This document shows, one piece after another, positions 1 to 38,014 of a DNA stretch of 38,014 bases (its first letter is position 1; each line of letters begins with the position of its first letter). The translations under genes were made by a program, and so were the position numbers. The stretch covers positions 1 through 38,014 of the IMG/VR virus record IMGVR_UViG_3300008266_000177; one strand, written 5' to 3'. The notes beneath the pieces are model-generated. The model saw nothing but the letters and a program-made list of their open reading frames with translations, had not been told where the DNA came from and made no database searches. The DNA comes from a virus.

Positions 1-114
1 CAGTGGCGGTAAGACTTCCTTGAAGGGAGACTTGGGCAACTTCTTCTCAGGTGCTTCGTGGTGGAAGATGGCGGCAAACTCCTTGGGGATGTTCTGGAAG
101 TTCGGCGTGCTTGA
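1..114. repeat. Terminal overlap, left copy
   Basis: These bases are identical to the last 114 bases of the window. Both copies lie inside the DNA polymerase reading frame and join it seamlessly, which is expected when a circular or circularly permuted genome is linearised with a small overlap. The true unit length is therefore 37,900 bp. A packaged direct terminal repeat cutting an essential gene is unlikely. Confidence 0.95.
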
Positions 115-5213: not shown

Positions 5214-5460
5214 TGAGCACCTCGTCGAGCTTGTTGGCGTACCAGATGGCCTTGCGGTTGTCTTCGACCGAGCTGTCCTTCTTGCCCAGGCGCCACTGAT
5301 ACTTGATGACTTGGCCGCGCAGGAAACCGATGAACTGCTCCTTGCCCAGGGCGGCACGGATTGCATCGATGCACTCGACCCCGTTGTCGGTCTCGGCGTA
5401 GTGAGGCGGGTGGTTGACCATGTCCTTGGCAGGAGCCGGCTTAGTGATCTTGCGTTGCAT
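5203..5460 (-). CDS. DUF3310 protein (T7 gp1.7-related nucleotide kinase domain)
   Basis: An 85-aa protein. The region after residue 14 (NHPPHYAETDNGVECIDAI, then FLRGQVIKYQWRLGKKD and DNRKAIWYANKLDEVL) is the DUF3310 signature. In T7 the same domain occurs in gp1.7, a novel dGMP/dTMP kinase. Here it exists alone, without the T7 N-terminal region. The start at 5460 lies inside the end of thyX (20-base overlap); longer starts have no coding character. With ThyX just upstream it may phosphorylate dTMP or a modified dNMP, which is inference. Confidence 0.85.
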   Translation of the reverse strand: MQRKITKPAPAKDMVNHPPHYAETDNGVECIDAIRAALGKEQFIGFLRGQVIKYQWRLGKKDSSVEDNRKAIWYANKLDEVLNEA

Positions 5461-6109
5461 CGAGAATCTCCTTGATTGAGGGCATGACATGAAGCAGAGC
5501 CAGCTTGCACATGACGGCAATCTCGCGGTGCTCCTTCTGGGTACCGTTGCCGGCACGGAGTTGGATGTAATGGATCCAGCTGCGAACTGAGCCGGACATG
5601 TAGAGGCGCGATGGTGTCAGGCCTTCGGGCAGGACAGCGCGAGCAACCTCCTTGGCGATTCCCATCTTGAGGGCAGACATGTACACCTCGCTTGTAGCGT
5701 GGGCAATCTCCTCTTGCTTGTATGCCCACCACTTGCGAAGATCGTCGTCCTCGATAGCCAAGCTGTTCTGGCGGTTCGTGGTGTCCTGCATGCGGGCTTC
5801 ACGGATCACCGCGTCATCGACCACAGCAGCGTAACGCTGGCTGAACTCTTGGAAGCTGAAGGACCGATGACGGAGAATCTGACGGGCGATGTCGCGGGTC
5901 GTCTGAATCTCGATGACAGCATGGGCCATCTCGAAGGGCGACCAGTGGTGGTTGCGCACAAGGTAGTTGAGCAGACGAGGAGCCGTTTCGTGGTTGGCCT
6001 GATTGGCAGGGTTCGAGACCCGTGCGCAGTAGGCCACCAGCTCCTCGCCCGTCTGAACACCTTCCAGCTCAATCGGCTGGGTGAACGCGATCAGACGGAC
6101 TTGGTTCAT
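5441..6109 (-). CDS. thyX: Flavin-dependent thymidylate synthase ThyX
   Basis: A 222-aa ThyX that makes dTMP from dUMP using methylene-tetrahydrofolate, FAD and NADPH. The ThyX signature RHRxxSxxxxSxRY is complete (RHRSFSFQEFSQRY, residues 80-93) and the upstream TTRDIARQIL helix is typical. The C-terminal part has the substrate-binding region RSWIHYIQLR. It overlaps the 71-aa gene upstream (ATGA) and DUF3310 downstream. The genome also has a ThyA-family gene at 29916-30698, so ThyX is probably the real thymidylate synthase of this phage. Confidence 0.96.
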   Translation of the reverse strand: MNQVRLIAFTQPIELEGVQTGEELVAYCARVSNPANQANHETAPRLLNYLVRNHHWSPFEMAHAVIEIQTTRDIARQILRHRSFSFQEFSQRYAAVVDDAVIREARMQDTTNRQNSLAIEDDDLRKWWAYKQEEIAHATSEVYMSALKMGIAKEVARAVLPEGLTPSRLYMSGSVRSWIHYIQLRAGNGTQKEHREIAVMCKLALLHVMPSIKEILDATQDH

Positions 6110-6323: not shown

Positions 6324-6680
6324 TCAGTTGCCCTCCACTTTGTCTGCACGAGCTTGGGCGGCTTCGTTGGTGTACTTCAGCCCGTTGTAGCGAACACTGA
6401 GCTTGGCGATGTTGGCTTCAAGTGTCTCTTCACGAGTGATGCCCAGGCCTTGGCGCAGACCTTCCATGTAGAACTCGAGATCGCCCAGTTCTTCGACGAC
6501 GTTTGCGCGATCGATGGGCTTGACATAGATGGCCGCTTTCTTGACGGCGTCCAGCAATTCACCGGCTTCACCGGAGACACCGACCGCCATGTGCAGAAGG
6601 TGAGCTGTCTCAGGTGTCAGACTTGCGACGATGTCTGCACCAGGTTTGGCCAATGCTTTGACCATATCTGCGTGGTTCAT
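6324..6680 (-). CDS. MazG-like nucleotide pyrophosphohydrolase
   Basis: A 118-aa all-alpha NTP pyrophosphohydrolase. The metal-binding pattern is present: ExxE at 38-41 (GEAGELLD) and ExxD at 64-67 (VEELGDLEFY). The family hydrolyses (d)NTPs to NMP and pyrophosphate, clearing unwanted nucleotides or feeding dNMPs to synthesis. ThyX lies two genes downstream. A second, different MazG-superfamily gene lies at 31090-31482. It follows a strong leftward terminator, so it needs readthrough or its own start signal. Confidence 0.9.
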   Translation of the reverse strand: MNHADMVKALAKPGADIVASLTPETAHLLHMAVGVSGEAGELLDAVKKAAIYVKPIDRANVVEELGDLEFYMEGLRQGLGITREETLEANIAKLSVRYNGLKYTNEAAQARADKVEGN

Positions 6681-19169: not shown

Positions 19170-21050
19170 ATGGCAGACCCTAGACCGCTAACCCGTGAAA
19201 CTCTGGCCAAGTTCTTGCCAGACCAGGAGTCCATCCGCAGATTTGAACGGTTGTTCTATGTTGCGGGAGACCTGACTCCTGCCGACATTGCCATGCTGAC
19301 ACGTCTTTCGCAAGAGTCTTCAATCGATGCGAATACAGCCCAAGCTTCTGCCCAGTCGGCGCTTGATCAGCTTGGCCAAATTGTCCAAGACGCAGCCATC
19401 AATGCTGGTGCCGCTGACGGCAAGGCCACTCAGGCCTTGGACTTGCTTGGTAGGATCGCCCAGTCTCTTGAGTTGTTGGCCACTGCCCCTACAGCCCGTG
19501 AGGATAACTTCATCGGCACGGATTACATCGACGTCAACACAGTTGCTCCGACTGTGGTTGGGGGTGTGCCAGGTCGCATGAAGTGGAATGATACTGACGG
19601 CACTCTTGACCTTGGTTTAAAGGGCGGAAATGTCACACTTCAAATCGGACAGGAGAATGTCCTCATTGTCAAGAATGATGAAGCAACTGCCCTCACTGAT
19701 GGCGAAGTGGTCTATGTCTCAGGAGCTTCTGGCGCCAACCTGCTTGTCAAGCGGGCTCTGGCCGATTCTGACGTAACGTCGGCAAGCACCATTGGCATCG
19801 TGACAGAGCCAATTGGCGTCAACGGTCAGGGATACATCACCACTTTTGGCCAAGTGCGCGGCCTTAACACGTCTGCCTTCAATGAAGGCGACATCTTGTA
19901 TCTGTCACCAACGGTAGCTGGTCAAATCACCAACGTGAAGCCTACTGCTCCTCAGCACATGGTGACAGTTGGGTATTGCACCAAGAAGTCTGCCGGCAAC
20001 GGCGAAATCTTCACAAAGGTTGATAATGGGTACGAGGTAGATGAACTTCACAATGTGTTGATCACTAATCCGGTCTTGGCCGGAAGTTTGCTGATCTATG
20101 ACGCAACTGTTGGAGTTTGGAAAAATGCCCGACTGACTGCTGGTACCAACGTCGCCATCACAAACGCAGACGGGTCAATCACAATTGCCGTGGCTGGCGC
20201 AGCACCCACTGGAGCGGCCGGCGGCGTCCTTAGTGGCACATACCCAAACCCAGGTTTTGATGTTGACATGGCCACACAGGCTGAACTTGATACAGCAATT
20301 GCCACGCGTGAACCAACGATCACTGCTGGAACGACTGTGCAGTATTGGCGCGGTGACAAAACTTGGCAAGACTTGTTTGCCCAAGTCAGAGCTGCAACTC
20401 TAACTGGTTTATCTACAGCCACCAATGCAGTTATCACAGCTGCTGACACTGTGCTGTCGGCGCTTGGAAAGTTGCAGAAGCAGATCAGTGATAATCTGAC
20501 GACTTTGTCAAGCCACACTGGCGCAACAGCGGCACACGGTGCGACCGGCGCGGTTGTAGGCACGACCAATACACAGACGTTGACTAACAAGACACTGACG
20601 GCGGCGGTGCTTGGTGGCACAACGGATGTTTCTGGTGGTCAATTGAAGTTTCCGTCGACTCAGTCAGCATCAACAGACCCGAACACTTTGGATGATTATG
20701 AAGAGGGGACCTGGACGCCTACCGTGTCTGCTGCCTCTGGAGCAATTACCAGTTACACGATCAATAGTGCAACCTATACCAAAATTGGGCGCCAGGTCCT
20801 ATTGAACTTTGACTACACAATCACCAACAATGGGACAGGTGGTTTGGCCACTTTTCTCAACGGCCTGCCTTTCAATGTCTCAGGAGGGGCCAACGCTTCC
20901 ATGGGGACTGCCCGTGAGGTGGCCGTAAACGGGACTCTTGGTTGTGTGTACCCGTCAGGAGTAAGCCAGTTGGTTGTAATCTCTTACAATAACGGCTACC
21001 TTGGTGGTACCAACTGGCGCATTGTCGGCTCTGTGGCTTACAACGCGTAA
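19170..21050 (+). CDS. Tail fibre-like structural protein, 626 aa
   Basis: A 626-aa protein. The N-terminal ~110 residues are helical (PDQESIRRFERLFYV, ASAQSALDQLGQIVQDAA), suggesting a trimeric coiled coil that anchors to the tail. The middle holds virion-type beta repeats (GEVVYVSGASGANLLVKRA, GDILYLSPTVAG). Then come a TNKTLT repeat-type stretch and a C-terminal domain opening with DDYEEGTWTPTVS, a common receptor-facing domain of phage tail proteins. It occupies the place of the P22 tail needle (gp26) but is much longer. It probably forms a central needle/fibre or side fibres. Confidence 0.8.
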   Translation: MADPRPLTRETLAKFLPDQESIRRFERLFYVAGDLTPADIAMLTRLSQESSIDANTAQASAQSALDQLGQIVQDAAINAGAADGKATQALDLLGRIAQSLELLATAPTAREDNFIGTDYIDVNTVAPTVVGGVPGRMKWNDTDGTLDLGLKGGNVTLQIGQENVLIVKNDEATALTDGEVVYVSGASGANLLVKRALADSDVTSASTIGIVTEPIGVNGQGYITTFGQVRGLNTSAFNEGDILYLSPTVAGQITNVKPTAPQHMVTVGYCTKKSAGNGEIFTKVDNGYEVDELHNVLITNPVLAGSLLIYDATVGVWKNARLTAGTNVAITNADGSITIAVAGAAPTGAAGGVLSGTYPNPGFDVDMATQAELDTAIATREPTITAGTTVQYWRGDKTWQDLFAQVRAATLTGLSTATNAVITAADTVLSALGKLQKQISDNLTTLSSHTGATAAHGATGAVVGTTNTQTLTNKTLTAAVLGGTTDVSGGQLKFPSTQSASTDPNTLDDYEEGTWTPTVSAASGAITSYTINSATYTKIGRQVLLNFDYTITNNGTGGLATFLNGLPFNVSGGANASMGTAREVAVNGTLGCVYPSGVSQLVVISYNNGYLGGTNWRIVGSVAYNA

Positions 21051-21528: not shown

Positions 21529-22395
21529 ATGCTGGCTGAAACCAAATCCCACAGTATTGTGGATCCTGCCAAGATCGATCAGGTTGAATCCCACCTCTTG
21601 GACCTGCCTCAAGTCGAGTGCCCAGTTGTCCACCACTTCGGTCCTGGTATCTACATCCGCGAAGTCACCCTGCCTGCCGGCACACTTGCCATCGGTCACG
21701 CGCAGCGGTTTGAACACCTTAACATCATGCTGACAGGCGCAGTTGCCATGGTCGGTGACGATGGTCAGACCAAAGTGCTGCGAGCACCCATGATCTTTGT
21801 GGGTAAGCCAGGACGCAAACTTGGCTACGTGCTCGAGACCTGCATCTGGCAGAACGTCTACGCCACTGACGAGCGCGACATCGACAAACTTGAATCGATG
21901 TTTCTTGACAAGAGCGCCACATGGCAAGCTCACGCCGAAGTTGCCAAGCAACTTGAGACGTACCACCGCCGCGAAGATCGCGAAGACTTTGAGCTTGTTG
22001 TTCGCCTCGCTGGTTTCACCCCAGCTTCGGTTCAAGCCCAGTCTGAAAATCCACACGATCAGATCCACATGCCCAGTGGCTTTGCTACAAAGTTCACTGT
22101 GCGCGACTCGACTATCGAGGGCAAGGGCGTCTTTCTGAGCGCCCCAGTTGATGACGGTGAAGTCATTGCACCAGCCCGCATCGACGGCATGCGCACACCT
22201 GCTGGTCGTTACACCAACCACGCCAAAAACCCCAACGCCAAGTTTATCAAGGATGAGAACGGGGACATCTGGCTTGTGGCGACTCGGCGAATTGCTGGTT
22301 GCGTTGGCGGCAGCCAAGGTGAAGAGGTCACAGTTGACTACCGCCAAGCTCTCGCCCTCTCGGGCATCAATCTAATCGAAGGAGAATCCCAATGA
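21529..22395 (+). CDS. Cupin-SET domain fusion, predicted protein methyltransferase
   Basis: A 288-aa protein with two recognisable parts. Residues about 34-110 form a cupin-like beta barrel (LPAGTLAIGHAQRFEHLNIML, then APMIFVGKPGRKLGYVLE). Residues about 187-275 form a compact SET domain: G198-KGVF, the NHS-like RYTNHAKNPN (227-236) and GEEVTVDY (264-271), the motifs that bind AdoMet and the target lysine in SET methyltransferases. The usual RFxNHSCxPN has Ala for Ser and lacks the Cys. It lies between virion and ejection genes, so the likely targets are phage structural or host proteins. AAAGGAGAG precedes the ATG; the stop overlaps the next gene. Confidence 0.85.
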   Translation: MLAETKSHSIVDPAKIDQVESHLLDLPQVECPVVHHFGPGIYIREVTLPAGTLAIGHAQRFEHLNIMLTGAVAMVGDDGQTKVLRAPMIFVGKPGRKLGYVLETCIWQNVYATDERDIDKLESMFLDKSATWQAHAEVAKQLETYHRREDREDFELVVRLAGFTPASVQAQSENPHDQIHMPSGFATKFTVRDSTIEGKGVFLSAPVDDGEVIAPARIDGMRTPAGRYTNHAKNPNAKFIKDENGDIWLVATRRIAGCVGGSQGEEVTVDYRQALALSGINLIEGESQ

Positions 22396-29419: not shown

Positions 29420-29914
29420 TCAAAGTTCCACAAGAAGTTGTTCCCAAGCCCTCCCGGCGCCAGTCCACAAGTCTTTGGCTGCCGAGTGAGGGTATTCCTC
29501 CACATAGACAATCCGCTGGCAGCTTGTGTTCAGCAACAGTTTGCAGCAGGTCATGCATGGGCTGGCCGTCACGTAGGCTGTGTGGATGGCATACATATCT
29601 CGGCACTGGAGCAAAGCATTTTGCTCGGCGTGGATTGCTTGGCAGCCATCTAGGTTTGTGCCACTTGGCGCCTTGGCTCCTGAGCACGCATGGGGGAAGA
29701 CCTCAACCACATAGGTGTTGTGACCATCGTCGTCTGTCACGACATCCATGTGGTTGCAGTGAGGAAGTCCAGCCGCGACGCCGTTGTACCCTGTTGAGAG
29801 CACATGGCCACGGGCATTCAGCAAGACACAACCCACGGCACGTCGGCAGCAGGTCGTTCTCTGAGCGGTCAGCAAGGCCAACTTGAGGGCCCATTCGTCG
29901 CGGCTGAGTCTCAT
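29420..29914 (-). CDS. dCMP deaminase
   Basis: A 164-aa zinc deaminase converting dCMP to dUMP, the substrate of thymidylate synthase. The catalytic HAE is H95-A96-E97 and the second zinc motif SPCMTC supplies C120 and C123. A Cys/His-rich insertion precedes them (PHCNH, FPHACSG), as in the allosteric T4-type enzyme with its extra zinc. The start at 29914 has GGGAG 7 bases upstream and lies 1 base after the ThyA-family stop. It ends the leftward arm just before the terminator. With ThyX it forms a dCMP to dTMP route. Confidence 0.94.
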   Translation of the reverse strand: MRLSRDEWALKLALLTAQRTTCCRRAVGCVLLNARGHVLSTGYNGVAAGLPHCNHMDVVTDDDGHNTYVVEVFPHACSGAKAPSGTNLDGCQAIHAEQNALLQCRDMYAIHTAYVTASPCMTCCKLLLNTSCQRIVYVEEYPHSAAKDLWTGAGRAWEQLLVEL

Positions 29915-29915
29915 C

Positions 29916-30698
29916 TCAGTTCTCCCACCAGCGAAGGTCGTCACCAGCCTTGGTCTCGCGCAAAGCGGCCAAGGTCTTCATCAAATGCTGAGCATCATTC
30001 CAGAGCAGGATGTCTGTCTCAGGTTGCTCGAGGACCTCACTGGCCAAGCACAACTTGGCATCTGCCCAGTTGGTCTCATACAGGTGGCTTGAAGCTGCCG
30101 TCAAGAAGAGGCGGCCAGGCTTTACGGCATTGTCAAACTTCCGATGCTCATTCAACAGACCACAGACCAGATGGGCCAGCATGCTGAAGTTGAAGACATC
30201 GTATGGCACACCAAGCCAGACATCGCTTGATCGCATGAACACATGGGCATTGAGTTTGCCGCTGCGCATGCTAAAAAAGATGGCCACAGTGCACGGTACG
30301 TCCTTGGTCTGGGGTGGGCACTCGCGCCAAATTGTCAGACCAGCTTGACGGCTGTCTTCATCTGCCAGCAACTTCTCAACGATGTAAGGCAGCTGAGCCA
30401 CAATCTTGGGGCCGTAGGCACCGAAGAAGCGTTCGCCATCGTCGCTGAAGTCTTTGATGCGGCTGTTGTACGGAGCAATTGTCTCAACGCGGTCGTCACC
30501 AGACAAGATCCAGTAAGCCTCAGCCGCCATGAACTTGTAGCTCAGACTGCGATCAGGCACGCGAAGCACTGGACGGCGCATGTCAACCACCATGGTGCGT
30601 TGTGGAATCTCACGGGTCATCTTGCCGCGTGGAGCCACTGGGTCGCCATTGGTCAAGATGTCATTGAGAGCATCAAGCCAGGTTTTTGAGAAGTCCAT
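29916..30698 (-). CDS. ThyA-family enzyme, candidate dCMP hydroxymethylase/methylase
   Basis: A 260-aa ThyA-fold protein. The catalytic Cys136 (DVPCTV), Glu60 (AAEAYW), the phosphate-binding region MRSSDVWLG (R156, D159) and HLY (H205, Y207) are kept. The position of E. coli Asn177, 31 residues after the catalytic Cys in both, is Asp167 (LGVPYDVFN). In known enzymes Asn here selects dUMP, while Asp is found in T4 dCMP hydroxymethylase and converts Lactobacillus ThyA into a dCMP methylase. The PPCH motif is PCT and the usual IWDEW tryptophan region is replaced by IAPYNSRIKDFS. It is therefore more likely to act on dCMP than to duplicate ThyX. This inference needs biochemistry. Confidence 0.85.
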   Translation of the reverse strand: MDFSKTWLDALNDILTNGDPVAPRGKMTREIPQRTMVVDMRRPVLRVPDRSLSYKFMAAEAYWILSGDDRVETIAPYNSRIKDFSDDGERFFGAYGPKIVAQLPYIVEKLLADEDSRQAGLTIWRECPPQTKDVPCTVAIFFSMRSGKLNAHVFMRSSDVWLGVPYDVFNFSMLAHLVCGLLNEHRKFDNAVKPGRLFLTAASSHLYETNWADAKLCLASEVLEQPETDILLWNDAQHLMKTLAALRETKAGDDLRWWEN

Positions 30699-30700
30699 GG

Positions 30701-31072
30701 TCAGTCCTTTGAGTAGGCGCCAGCAAAGAAGCCAGCGTAGTTGATGATGTCCAACGCCGTATCGCGCAAGCCTTCAAAGTTTGCGTCTTGGCCACGCATC
30801 TCTTTGAGGACCAGCGAGTTGAAGCGCTGAGACTTGGTGTGAAGCATCTGAGCGTAGCTTACTGCACCGAATGGGAAGTACGACGAACGGTCGATCTTGT
30901 GCGGATCCATGTCCGCCGCGCCTTGGTTGTAGTCTTGGCTCTTGCGGACACAGAGCAAAGCAGCTTCAGCCAAAGCACCGGGGTGTCCACCGCGAGATTG
31001 GAGTTCTTCCAACAATTCCACAGTTGAGCATTCGGCCAGTTGAGTGGCAGGCAGCAAAGACTTGGTTTTCAT
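30701..31072 (-). CDS. DUF1599/Nmad1-like protein, nucleotide modification associated
   Basis: A 123-aa mostly helical protein starting at 31072 (AAAGGA 7 bases upstream). The VRKSQDYNQGA stretch, the TKSQRFNSLVL helix and the closing LRDTALDIINYAGFF follow the pattern of DUF1599, named nucleotide modification associated domain 1 because of its gene neighbourhoods in phages. The biochemical activity of this family is not established. It lies 2 bp upstream of the ThyA-family gene, which suggests joint function in making or handling an unusual nucleotide. Family call is moderate. Confidence 0.65.
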   Translation of the reverse strand: MKTKSLLPATQLAECSTVELLEELQSRGGHPGALAEAALLCVRKSQDYNQGAADMDPHKIDRSSYFPFGAVSYAQMLHTKSQRFNSLVLKEMRGQDANFEGLRDTALDIINYAGFFAGAYSKD

Positions 31073-31089
31073 ATCAGTTCCTTTACGAG

Positions 31090-31482
31090 TTACCATGACA
31101 AAATTTCCTTTAAGCGATATTCAGGACCTACCCAGCCTTCCGGCTTCTTGACGTCGAACGCGCTGCCGCGCTTTGAGTCTTCAGCCTTGGCCACACGGAC
31201 CTTGGCCATATTAGCAGAATGAACTGCGTGCATGCCGGCGTGCCACTGAGCAGCATCAATGCCAGCAAAGAGTGCTGTGCCGTAGGCCACATAAGCCAGA
31301 TCGAGCAAAGCATCGAAGGCGCCAACCTTGTCACCAGTAGCCAAAGCCTCTTTGAGCTCATCGAGTTCCTCTTGGAGAAACTTGACGCGAAACTCCTGCG
31401 CAGCAGGGTCCTGCATGAGTTTGTCTTCGTTGCCCAAAGGCAAACCAAACTTCTCATGGAATTCAGCGACATTTCCAATCAT
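31090..31482 (-). CDS. Second MazG/HisE-superfamily nucleotide pyrophosphohydrolase
   Basis: A 130-aa all-alpha protein of the MazG/PRA-PH superfamily. FLQEELDELKEAL (35-47) holds the first acidic motif (E39, E42) and DALLDLAYVAYG (57-68) the second. It belongs to the phage subgroup usually annotated as PRA-PH-like or HisE-like, which has no histidine pathway role in phages and probably hydrolyses a dNTP. Next to the Nmad1-like and ThyA-family genes it could act as a dCTPase, as T4 gp56 does with an unrelated fold. Its sequence is clearly distinct from the MazG-like protein at 6324-6680. Confidence 0.85.
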   Translation of the reverse strand: MIGNVAEFHEKFGLPLGNEDKLMQDPAAQEFRVKFLQEELDELKEALATGDKVGAFDALLDLAYVAYGTALFAGIDAAQWHAGMHAVHSANMAKVRVAKAEDSKRGSAFDVKKPEGWVGPEYRLKEILSW

Positions 31483-32300
31483 CAGAACGGCGCTCCTTTC
31501 GTGGCCTTGCGAGCAACTGGCTTTACGGGCTTGCCATCAGCCGCTTTGCGGCACACCCACAGGTTGTTGCGAGCGTGATCCTCATGCAACGGGCCAAAGA
31601 TGTTGCTGATGGCGTCGTTGTCGAAGTACTGTTCCAACGCCTTGCGAACTTCCAGTACAGCTGCCTTGCTGCAGCCAGTGGGGTCAACCTTGCCGATGTG
31701 CTTGATGTCCATGAATGTGCCAAAGCGGCGCTCGATGACGTAGCCAGCTTTCTCGATGGCGGCCTGCAGCTCAGGCACTTTGTACTCATGGATGTGGTTC
31801 TTGGCATGGCGCACGCCGTCATAGACTGGAGTCGAGAGCAGCAACACGCCGCCCGGCTTAGTGGCTGCAAACATGGCCTTGAGTAGGTTGGCCCCATGCT
31901 CGACCTTCATGTGCTCAATGACTTCGTAGTTGACGACGACGTCAAAGCCCTCAGGACGCGCCTTCAGGAGTTCTTTGTAGCGCTCGACGAAGTTGAACTC
32001 GCCCAGGAACTGGAGGCGCTGGCTATTAGACGGCTTCAACTTATTGAGGTCCACGCCAGTGTAGTGGTTGACATGAGCAGCTGCACCGCCTGTGAGAATC
32101 TTGCTGAGCGGTTTGTCTTCGCCGCAGCCGACTTCGAGGACGTTGTGCTTGGCCGTGATGAAGCGACGTGCAAAGCTCCAGCGCCAAAAGTGGGCGGAGT
32201 AGTCGCGGTGCAGAGTGCGGCCGTGACCCGCTTCGTGCAGTTGAGTAGTGTCGTAGTCGCGGGCGTCGCGAGAGACTTCTTTAGTGCTTGCTTTTGGCAT
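31482..32300 (-). CDS. SAM-dependent methyltransferase (class I)
   Basis: A 272-aa class I methyltransferase. Motif I is VLEVGCGEDKP (54-64), the acidic end of strand 2 is YTGVDLN, and motif IV is VVNYEVIEHM, followed by GGVLLLSTPVY. The lack of DPPY or NPPY argues against an amino-methylating DNA methyltransferase, and the family resembles small-molecule or sugar O/C-methyltransferases. It adjoins the MazG-like gene and may modify a nucleotide, a base adduct or a surface molecule. The C-terminal tail is basic (KPVKPVARKATKGAPF). Confidence 0.85.
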   Translation of the reverse strand: MPKASTKEVSRDARDYDTTQLHEAGHGRTLHRDYSAHFWRWSFARRFITAKHNVLEVGCGEDKPLSKILTGGAAAHVNHYTGVDLNKLKPSNSQRLQFLGEFNFVERYKELLKARPEGFDVVVNYEVIEHMKVEHGANLLKAMFAATKPGGVLLLSTPVYDGVRHAKNHIHEYKVPELQAAIEKAGYVIERRFGTFMDIKHIGKVDPTGCSKAAVLEVRKALEQYFDNDAISNIFGPLHEDHARNNLWVCRKAADGKPVKPVARKATKGAPF

Positions 32301-32366: not shown

Positions 32367-33023
32367 TTACTTTGCCACCTTGGCTTCGGGCGGATTGGCG
32401 CCTTGCTTCTTCAGGTGGTTGCGATACCATTTGACGTAGCCACGCTTCTTTTCGTCCAGACCGAACTCGGTTTGAACCTTCTCAAAGATTTGGTCGTCGG
32501 TCAACTTGCCAGCCATGATCAAATCTTGAAACATCTGAGCAGCCGAGGGTTTCTTCTCCCCAGCCTTGGCGGGCTTTGACACTGGCTTCTTCACCGCCGG
32601 ATCAACAGCTCGGCGACCGGCTTTAACCTCGGTCGTCTTTGCTGCCGGCTTCTTGGCGGCGGGTTTTGCTGCTTTGGTGGCAGCCGGCTTCTCAGCCGTG
32701 GTTTGCTTTTTGGCGGTAGCCATTTCGAGCTCCTGTTTGCTTACGTTGATGACTTGGCCAAGATATTCCATGGCCTCCTTTGTCGCCCCGAGGGTCTGGC
32801 TGTAGTTCACAAAGAGCTGACATGCCTTCTCAACAGGGTATCCTTCCATCGGCGTGAACCGCTGGTCGAATGAATCCGCCGACGTCGAATGGACCTCAAG
32901 GCCCAAAATGATGTCTAGCGGAATGAACTTGACAAGACCTGCACTGCGCTCAACTTGAATGCAGGTGCGTCTGTTGTGGTCGTGGCACGGCATGACCGCC
33001 GGTGCTTGCTTCTTAGTTGCCAT
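32367..33023 (-). CDS. Two-part protein with internal start; basic linker and C-terminal domain
   Basis: A 218-aa protein. The start at 33023 has TGGAGA 9 bases upstream. Residues 1-100 are a small folded part (PCHDHNRRTC, LVKFIPLDIILGLEV, FTPMEGYPVEKACQLF). Exactly at residue 101 an in-frame ATG (32723) follows AGGAG by 6 bases, so a 118-aa C-terminal product is probably also made. That product has a Lys/Ala/Pro linker of histone-tail type (AAKPAAKKPAAK) and a C-terminal helical domain (DLIMAGKLTDDQIFEKV, then YVKWYRNHLKKQG) that is paralogous to the end of the protein at 33458-33877. It resembles two genes fused by stop loss. DNA or RNA binding is suggested by charge only. Confidence 0.75.
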   Translation of the reverse strand: MATKKQAPAVMPCHDHNRRTCIQVERSAGLVKFIPLDIILGLEVHSTSADSFDQRFTPMEGYPVEKACQLFVNYSQTLGATKEAMEYLGQVINVSKQELEMATAKKQTTAEKPAATKAAKPAAKKPAAKTTEVKAGRRAVDPAVKKPVSKPAKAGEKKPSAAQMFQDLIMAGKLTDDQIFEKVQTEFGLDEKKRGYVKWYRNHLKKQGANPPEAKVAK

Positions 33024-33258
33024 TCTTTTTATCTCCAGAAAGTTGATCAGCGATGACGGACAATTCAAGAAGGCCTTGCATCAAGACCTTGGCTTCAGGC
33101 CAGTACTGTGGTCCATAGACCTGCCAGTGAAGCTGAACTGTGCCGTTCTTCTTGCTCACGAGAGCACGCCTACCGCCGTCGATGTACAGCTGGAAGCGAA
33201 TCTCCTCGTGCGTGCTCTCGTCAATAATCTCGATGGTGTCCGGGTTGCTGATGGTCAT
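33013..33258 (-). CDS. Unknown small protein, 81 aa
   Basis: An 81-aa alpha/beta protein starting at 33258, where the ATG overlaps the stop of the upstream gene (ATGA) and GGGG lies 7 bases upstream. The first 45 residues are beta-rich (TIEIIDESTHEEIRFQLYI, then GTVQLHWQVYG). A helix follows (EAKVLMQGLLELSVIADQL). The end overlaps the start of the 218-aa gene by 11 bases. I do not recognise a family. Confidence 0.7.
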   Translation of the reverse strand: MTISNPDTIEIIDESTHEEIRFQLYIDGGRRALVSKKNGTVQLHWQVYGPQYWPEAKVLMQGLLELSVIADQLSGDKKNGN

Positions 33259-33457: not shown

Positions 33458-33877
33458 TCAAGCTTCCTTGGGCAGGAGACCAGTGCGCTTCATCTCGCAA
33501 CGATACCAAGTAGGGTAGTGCTTCTTGGAATCATCAAGGTTGAACTGCTGCTTCAGTGCTTCCCAGACTTCTTGGTTAGTCTTGCCAGACAGGATCAACT
33601 CACGCGCCGTGGCAGAGATGCCCATCTTCTTCGGCTTGACTTCGACAACCGGGTCGGCAGCGCGACGACCTGCCTTAACAACCTTGGCCTTAGGTTCGGC
33701 AGCGGCAACTGGCTTGGGGTTCTTCAAAGACTCAAGATGGGCGGCAGCTGCGCCGAGCTTGCACTCGAACTTGTCGCCAACCTTCGTGATGAAGAGGTTG
33801 TAGTCGCGAGCCTGAAGGCCGAGCTTACGCAGGGCTGAAGTGGCAGAGTCGCGGGCGGTGTAGGTCTTGGTCGTCAT
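33458..33877 (-). CDS. Early protein with WYR-type C-terminal domain, 139 aa
   Basis: The first gene behind promoter P4; the ATG at 33877 (MTTKTYTARD) follows GCTGAGGA. Residues 1-60 are a small folded part (ATSALRKLGLQARDYNLFI, FECKLGAAAAHLESL). A KAGRRAADP linker follows, then a C-terminal helical domain (ARELILSGKTNQEVWEALKQQF, then HYPTWYRCEMKRTG). The linker and C-terminal domain are paralogous to the end of the 218-aa protein at 32367-33023. The helical end looks like a short DNA-binding or docking domain. Function unknown. Confidence 0.8.
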   Translation of the reverse strand: MTTKTYTARDSATSALRKLGLQARDYNLFITKVGDKFECKLGAAAAHLESLKNPKPVAAAEPKAKVVKAGRRAADPVVEVKPKKMGISATARELILSGKTNQEVWEALKQQFNLDDSKKHYPTWYRCEMKRTGLLPKEA

Positions 33878-33902
33878 GGTAGGGTCCTCAGCAAGGTTTG
33901 TT

Positions 33903-33927
33903 CGGTCAAGCACCATTGCGTTGACCG
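33903..33927 (-). other. 5'-terminal RNA hairpin of the P4 transcript
   Basis: CGGTCAA (minus strand, 33927-33921) pairs with TTGACCG (33909-33903): 7 bp with an 11-nt loop, starting next to the P4 transcript start (about 33928). It matches the placement of the P3 hairpin but has a longer stem and an unrelated loop. Confidence 0.65.
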
Positions 33928-37166: not shown

Positions 37167-38014
37167 CACAGCACCTTGCCTTTCTTGTCGTAGTCCTGGA
37201 GTTCATCCCAGTTGGTTGAGGAGATTGCCCCCTCACTTAGAATGGGAACGTCGAACTCTACGCTCTCCATGCATTTGCGCAGCACTTCCATCTCAGGCTT
37301 CAGGATCTTTTTCGGCACGCTGACCGTGACCTGGTCATGCACGTTGAGGACGATCTTGGCATCAGGATGCTTGGCCGCGTGATAGCGAATGATCGCCTCC
37401 TTGGTGCAGTCAGCAGCCGAACCCTGAATGAGCACGTTGACCAGCTTGTAGTCAAACTCACGAATGCGGCCATCAATGAGCTTCGGCTCCTCGCAGTAGT
37501 ACTCACGGCCACCCCAGGTGCGGATGGGTTCCTTGTTCTTGGCCCGCAGCTTCATGTCGCTGTACATCTGCTTGAGCCCAGGGTAGAGCATCAGAATGGC
37601 CTTCTTCAACTCGCTGGACTCCTCAACCGTCATGCCATTGCGCTCAGCCAGCTTGCCGACGCCCATGCCGTAGATCAGGCCGAGGTTGGTGTTCTTCACT
37701 GGCTTGCGGTCGTAGAACTTGCCCATCTTCTCGAGCTCTGCCTTGGCATAGTCGTGGAAGTCGATCCAAGGGTTCTCGACGTACTTGTCCATCAGAGCTC
37801 CACCGTCGAAGTGGGCCAAGATGCGAGGTTCTTGCTGCGAGTAATCTCGGTCGATGAAGATCTCTCCTTTAAACGGCGTGATGTAGCTGCGCACCTTGGG
37901 CAGTGGCGGTAAGACTTCCTTGAAGGGAGACTTGGGCAACTTCTTCTCAGGTGCTTCGTGGTGGAAGATGGCGGCAAACTCCTTGGGGATGTTCTGGAAG
38001 TTCGGCGTGCTTGA
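37166..38014 (-). CDS. Family A DNA polymerase, C-terminal part (polymerase domain)
   Basis: This is the end of the polymerase gene that begins at 1182; bases 37901-38014 repeat bases 1-114. Numbering by the 638-aa full protein: motif A is DYSQQEPR (D413), motif B has R459, K463, L467 and Y471 in the RKPVKNTNLGLIYG helix, and motif C is VHDQ (H582, D583, Q584). The catalytic Asp pair D413/D583 and the nucleotide-binding Arg/Lys/Tyr are intact. The position of E. coli Phe762 is Leu467, and the Glu after the motif C Asp is Gln. The frame has no start here because it enters from the circular junction. Confidence 0.95.
   Translation of the reverse strand, partial: SSTPNFQNIPKEFAAIFHHEAPEKKLPKSPFKEVLPPLPKVRSYITPFKGEIFIDRDYSQQEPRILAHFDGGALMDKYVENPWIDFHDYAKAELEKMGKFYDRKPVKNTNLGLIYGMGVGKLAERNGMTVEESSELKKAILMLYPGLKQMYSDMKLRAKNKEPIRTWGGREYYCEEPKLIDGRIREFDYKLVNVLIQGSAADCTKEAIIRYHAAKHPDAKIVLNVHDQVTVSVPKKILKPEMEVLRKCMESVEFDVPILSEGAISSTNWDELQDYDKKGKVL
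37901..38014. repeat. Terminal overlap, right copy
   Basis: Identical to bases 1-114; the redundancy left by opening a circular or circularly permuted genome inside the DNA polymerase gene. Confidence 0.95.

Follow-up and report, generated by a model that had tools for sequence, protein, structure and literature searches.

In bacteriophage T4 the hydroxymethylase gp42 acts on dCMP, and a phage kinase raises the resulting hydroxymethyl-dCMP to the triphosphate. An aspartate three residues ahead of the catalytic cysteine of gp42 (T4 Asp145; here Asp-3) was proposed as a signature of hydroxymethylation (PMC6400193), and the MetaGPA data indicate that an aspartate at the position of E. coli ThyA Asn177 (here Asp177) separates the thymidylate synthase (TS) homologues of cytosine-modified contigs from those of unmodified contigs (PMC8670742). 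Asp-3 is common to T4 gp42, to MilA of the mildiomycin pathway, and to SPO1 gp29, a dUMP hydroxymethylase, which retains Asn177 as expected for an enzyme of dUMP. The XP12-like phages AXL1, DLP4, YB23, PaMx28 and QDWS359, in turn, combine Asp177 with an asparagine at the -3 position (Asn-3). XP12 DNA contains 5-methylcytosine, and the AXL1 authors suspect the same in AXL1; the association of Asn-3 with methylases is derived from relatives of XP12 and not from XP12 itself.

Two described phages, Stenotrophomonas phage AXL3 and Pseudoxanthomonas phage PW916, encode homologues 56-58% identical to the protein at issue here (56% for AXL3 gp28), with the same residues. AXL3 DNA resists 35 of 37 restriction enzymes, being cut just by two with A/T-only sites; its authors ascribed the formation of dTMP to both this gene and thyX and did not commit themselves on the modification (PMC7504290). 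Here we analyse a phage genome which likewise encodes ThyX and a ThyA-superfamily protein, the latter probably a dCMP hydroxymethylase feeding cytosine replacement in phage DNA, with both the product and the final base being predictions.

The genome and its ThyX

The window, by which we mean the whole stretch of DNA analysed, comprises 38,014 bases. Because positions 1..114 are identical to 37901-38014, the record is a circular or complete phage genome with a direct terminal repeat of 114 bases and ~37.9 kb of unique sequence, in agreement with the size quoted in an earlier note on this DNA. The structural genes are P22-like, and the junction of the two ends is crossed by a DNA polymerase I gene. 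Within the structural region the protein encoded at 21529-22395 is tail-fibre-like in its N-terminal part and carries a SET domain at its C-terminus (PF00856, 24.3 bits, slightly above cut-off), an odd domain for this place. The product of 2370-2807 is homologous to pyrimidine-dimer glycosylases of the T4 endonuclease V family (PHROG 1183).

The thyX gene (5441..6109, reverse strand) encodes a flavin-dependent thymidylate synthase of 222 aa, complete with its motif, as the earlier note had it: the protein passes the curated TIGR02170 cut-off (150.5 against 87.9 bits), matches PF02511 with 134.9 bits, finds ThyX structures as its top PDB matches (1e-69) and carries the RHRx7SxRY motif at residue 80 (RHRSFSFQEFSQRY). 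By these features the gene is an ordinary ThyX, predicted to form dTMP in an FAD-dependent reaction. Nearby on the same strand lies a second MazG-like pyrophosphatase (6324..6680, 118 aa; PHROG 229, 1e-39). The ThyX of AXL3 (gp50; 19668-20516 in record L082) is too diverged to be found with the window ThyX as query, and its motif is THRx7S, not RHRx7S, so that its activity is uncertain. Both TS-type genes described for the window exist. The 24 kb said to separate them is correct on the linear record, but across the circle junction they are only ~12.8 kb apart, within one leftward replication and nucleotide module.

The ThyA-like protein and its substrate

The product of the ThyA-like gene (29916..30698, reverse strand; 260 aa) scores 78.9 bits against PF00303 but falls far under all NCBIfam thymidylate synthase cut-offs, the best score being 61.6 bits against cut-offs of 108 to 427. 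All TS catalytic residues are retained, including the cysteine and Glu58 in a TS-superfamily fold. In the substrate loop, GVPYDVF takes the place of the GLPFNIA of E. coli ThyA, such that Asn177 is replaced by Asp, which bears out the changed substrate residue of the earlier note. All 77 aligned relatives from IMG/VR share this aspartate with the window, and in each of them Asp-3, the cysteine, Glu58, Tyr94, Asp169, His207 and Tyr209 are likewise invariant. Asp-3 lies in the sequence KDVPC, and position 147 is Thr. The best PDB match is the CMP 5-hydroxymethylase MilA (IDVAC, with Asp in common), which is thus the closest solved structure by sequence and shares both Asp-3 and the aspartate at the cytosine position, but differs in acting on ribo-CMP in antibiotic synthesis.

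The likeness to T4 gp42 extends to the TS fold, the catalytic Cys and Glu, the aspartate at the cytosine position (T4 Asp179), Asp-3, the Thr after the Cys, the lack of a TS-like C-terminal tail, and the fact that each genome also encodes a thymidylate synthase (td in T4, ThyX in the window). The two proteins nevertheless have very low identity and lie on separate branches, the ThyA-like protein being distant from gp42 in the tree and not grouping with it; because of the long branches we distrust its placement relative to T4 gp42 and SPO1 gp29. In addition, the position of T4 Ser94 (Ser or Thr two residues before the active-site Tyr) is Gly in the window. Since it is Ala in SPO1 gp29, a known hydroxymethylase, this feature is not universal, but for the same position we say only that the protein probably works like gp42, and claim no membership in the gp42 group. 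Loss of Trp83 together with the missing TS C-terminal tail was considered as a marker of hydroxymethylation and ruled out, both being found in the methylase-type AXL1. Avoidance of palindromes, which might have hinted at protected DNA, was uninformative in the window, most tetramers being near expectation.

Taken together, Asp177, Asp-3, the match to MilA and the AXL3 restriction pattern argue for a dCMP hydroxymethylase and against a dTMP synthase. A rather unlikely alternative is that the enzyme is a dCMP methylase of the XP12 type, making 5-methyl-dCMP and hence 5-methylcytosine in phage DNA. The exchange of Asn177 for Asp alone turns laboratory thymidylate synthases to dCMP methylation, according to work cited in PMC8670742. 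AXL1, which is close to XP12, has Asp177, a fusion of MazG to an ORF131-like domain and no kinase, an arrangement resembling the window's cassette (below), and its restriction pattern is similar to that of AXL3. The residue at -3, however, is Asn in AXL1 and its four relatives, as against Asp in the window, in all 77 relatives and in known hydroxymethylases, and kinase-type relatives more than 90% identical have the same active site. Folate chemistry points in the same direction. A dCMP methylase yields dihydrofolate, while ThyX and hydroxymethylases both leave tetrahydrofolate unoxidised, so that a phage lacking dihydrofolate reductase (DHFR) fits the latter pair, whereas a methylase would call for DHFR. 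AXL1 has one; a search of 40 records of the lineage (the window and 39 others) found none, in a search by which even the functional AXL1 copy was detected weakly. Asp-3 and the lack of DHFR thus favour hydroxymethylation. The XP12-like dCMP methylases (AXL1 gp63, DLP4, PaMx28) share with the window Asp177, dCMP deaminase and MazG neighbours and, in the MazG fusion, the ORF131-like domain, but are accompanied by no ThyX and no detected methyltransferase of the window's family.

Very improbable is an additional dTMP synthase, or a backup enzyme acting on dUMP and dCMP alike, as implied by the annotation of the AXL3 copy as a thymidylate synthase and compatible with the retained catalytic residues; against it stand Asp177 throughout the relatives, the score far below every curated TS cut-off, the supply of dTMP by ThyX, and a genome with a 127-base repeat (G024) which keeps the ThyA-like gene alongside a canonical ThyA (391 bits). 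An SPO1-type dUMP hydroxymethylase, making 5-hydroxymethyl-dUMP as the start of thymine hypermodification, is the least probable reading, for although Asp-3 is shared with SPO1 gp29 and the PW916 copy is annotated as a deoxyuridylate hydroxymethyltransferase, SPO1 gp29 has Asn at 177, and AXL3 DNA is open to the enzymes with A/T-only sites and resists those with G/C sites, the reverse of what a change in thymine would give.

Co-occurrence with ThyX

The earlier note argued that a phage rarely affords two thymidylate synthases, and that the division of labour with ThyX itself supports a different function of the ThyA-like protein. The rarity is overstated, since T4 has both td and gene 42, and ThyX accompanies the ThyA-like gene in 20 of 82 records (18/50 and 2/32, the two sets comprising carriers of this gene or of its AXL1 relative). 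Nor does the division of labour hold as support, as most relatives lack ThyX. The survey of relatives which the note proposed yielded six apparently complete genomes in which the Asp variant is the only PF00303 gene and ThyX is lacking: MW202621, which is circular and complete, and five IMG/VR genomes (G019, G026, G028, G030, G060) whose terminal repeats measure 99 to 141 bases. Relatives of this kind are what the note itself had named as evidence against its argument. We have accordingly dropped co-occurrence as evidence for the function of the ThyA-like protein. Phages can use the host thymidylate synthase, so that the presence or absence of ThyX says little on the Asp variant. ThyX is common only among the closest relatives of the window and, since the other copies (AXL3, L042, L058) belong to diverged lineages, looks to have been acquired separately. 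That the ThyA-like protein is something other than a dTMP synthase is nonetheless well supported, namely by its residues, its relatives and its neighbours.

Organisation of the cassette

The ThyA-like gene belongs to a conserved cassette with the order methyltransferase, MazG, a variable slot, hydroxymethylase and dCMP deaminase, the slot holding either a fusion of a thymidylate-kinase-like with a uracil-DNA glycosylase (UDG)-like domain or a DUF1599-like protein. In the window these genes, all on the reverse strand, overlap or abut, an operon order that is directly observed. The dCMP deaminase gene (29420..29944, 174 aa; PF00383, 67.2 bits; PHROG 174) overlaps the hydroxymethylase gene. On its other side lie ORF131 (30701..31096), a DUF1599-like protein (nucleotide modification associated domain 1) below the family cut-off (PF07659, 14.6 bits against 25; PHROG 18404), a MazG/PRA-PH-like nucleotide pyrophosphohydrolase (31090..31482, 130 aa; PF01503, 46.3 bits; PHROG 671), which is a candidate dCTP pyrophosphatase, and a SAM-dependent methyltransferase of the UbiG/Hen1-like kind (31482..32300, 272 aa; Methyltransf_23, 50.2 bits). 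Beyond the cassette, 32367-33068 and 33458-33916 encode neighbouring proteins with a common C-terminal domain (PHROG 17205), an apparent duplication.

Of 67 hydroxymethylase loci with enough flank, 63 have the methyltransferase, which falls into two diverged subfamilies. In an alignment of 72 homologues E126xxE129H130 and N168H169xxE172 are invariant or nearly so, an ExxEH...NHxxE pattern which we take to be that of metal-dependent O-methyltransferases of the UbiG/Hen1 type; comparison of the protein with solved structures gave no match.

The slot between MazG and the hydroxymethylase holds either ORF131 or a protein of ~310 residues, the first half of which is thymidylate-kinase-like and the second UDG-like (model pLDDT 91, the kinase half backed by Foldseek); HTVC200P and MW202510 have the slot kinase without the UDG half. 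Counted without AXL1 and the window's duplicate, the kinase occupies 61 loci and ORF131 20, with both in none. The exclusion is genome-wide, no kinase being found in the 19 ORF131-type records (positive controls 11/11) and no ORF131 in the 36 kinase-type records (positive controls 7/7). On the hydroxymethylase tree the slot has switched state at least 11 times. Between the window and L005 the flanks are 86-87% identical on either side of unrelated blocks of 0.42 and 0.94 kb, a clean replacement, and exchange is seen among the window, L005, L011, L013, L014, L021 and others, even where the hydroxymethylases are ~95% identical. As MazG and an ORF131-like domain form one protein in AXL1, ORF131 may work with MazG on nucleotides. 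Its model (pLDDT 69.6) matches helical structures weakly, MazG 1vmg (Z 6.4) among them, and a Foldseek search with this weak model returned no match at E below 1.

AXL3 and PW916 share with the window the order of dCMP deaminase, hydroxymethylase, MazG and methyltransferase, as well as ThyX in the same leftward module. They differ in carrying the kinase-UDG fusion where the window has ORF131 (in AXL3: dCMP deaminase, ThyA-like gene, kinase, MazG, methyltransferase, with ThyX 14 kb from the ThyA-like gene), in their very diverged ThyX, and in phage type, AXL3 being a siphovirus of 47.5 kb. The MetaGPA cytosine-modification cluster of the Xp15 type shares the Asp177 TS homologue, MazG and dCMP deaminase, but has a 5hmC carbamoyltransferase, which the window lacks, having the methyltransferase in its cassette instead. 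Also by difference from T4, the window has no glucosyltransferase, and no recognisable T4-type dCTPase or dNMP kinase was found in it.

A putative pathway

From T4 and its relatives we infer the substrate, product, incorporation and protective effect as follows. ThyX would make dTMP from dUMP, with dUMP supplied by the dCMP deaminase, while one or more of the neighbouring MazG-type enzymes would probably cut dCTP to dCMP, both removing the normal dCTP and feeding the hydroxymethylase. The latter would use dCMP rather than dUMP, Asp177 holding the cytosine; the catalytic cysteine would attack C6, the one-carbon unit would come from methylene-tetrahydrofolate, and Asp-3 would position the water adding to the exocyclic methylene, giving 5-hydroxymethyl-dCMP. 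This nucleotide would then be raised to the triphosphate and replace cytosine in the phage DNA, which would thereby be shielded from restriction. A Walker A scan and a profile search, with positive controls, found no kinase homologue in the window, and in such a genome the modified nucleotide would be phosphorylated by an enzyme of the host, unless ORF131 opens a different route.

A more speculative and on balance doubtful proposal is that the methyltransferase caps the hydroxymethyl group, the phage DNA then having a methylated cytosine or some other new derivative rather than glucosyl- or carbamoyl-hmC. In the same proposal the two occupants of the slot, the kinase-UDG fusion and the DUF1599-like protein, would act as interchangeable alleles for two versions of the pathway, swapped between phages to escape modification-dependent restriction. 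The literature searched contained nothing on ThyX together with hmC, nor on methoxymethyl-cytosine in phages, and no described role in the hmC pathway for the cassette methyltransferase or the either/or slot.

Implications

The window, then, combines an ordinary ThyX with what is very probably a dCMP hydroxymethylase. The enzyme type is already known, as in phage T4; the cassette around it is a less familiar variant, with its methyltransferase and its either/or slot. The gene annotated as a thymidylate synthase in AXL3, and under another name in PW916, would be reassigned to cytosine hydroxymethylation, and since AXL3 is a cultured phage, the final base is directly measurable there. Many phage contigs from the environment, about 36 to 72 kb in length, have the cassette, and the residue rule, Asp177 with either Asp or Asn at -3, would sort the TS homologues of phages into hydroxymethylases and methylases.
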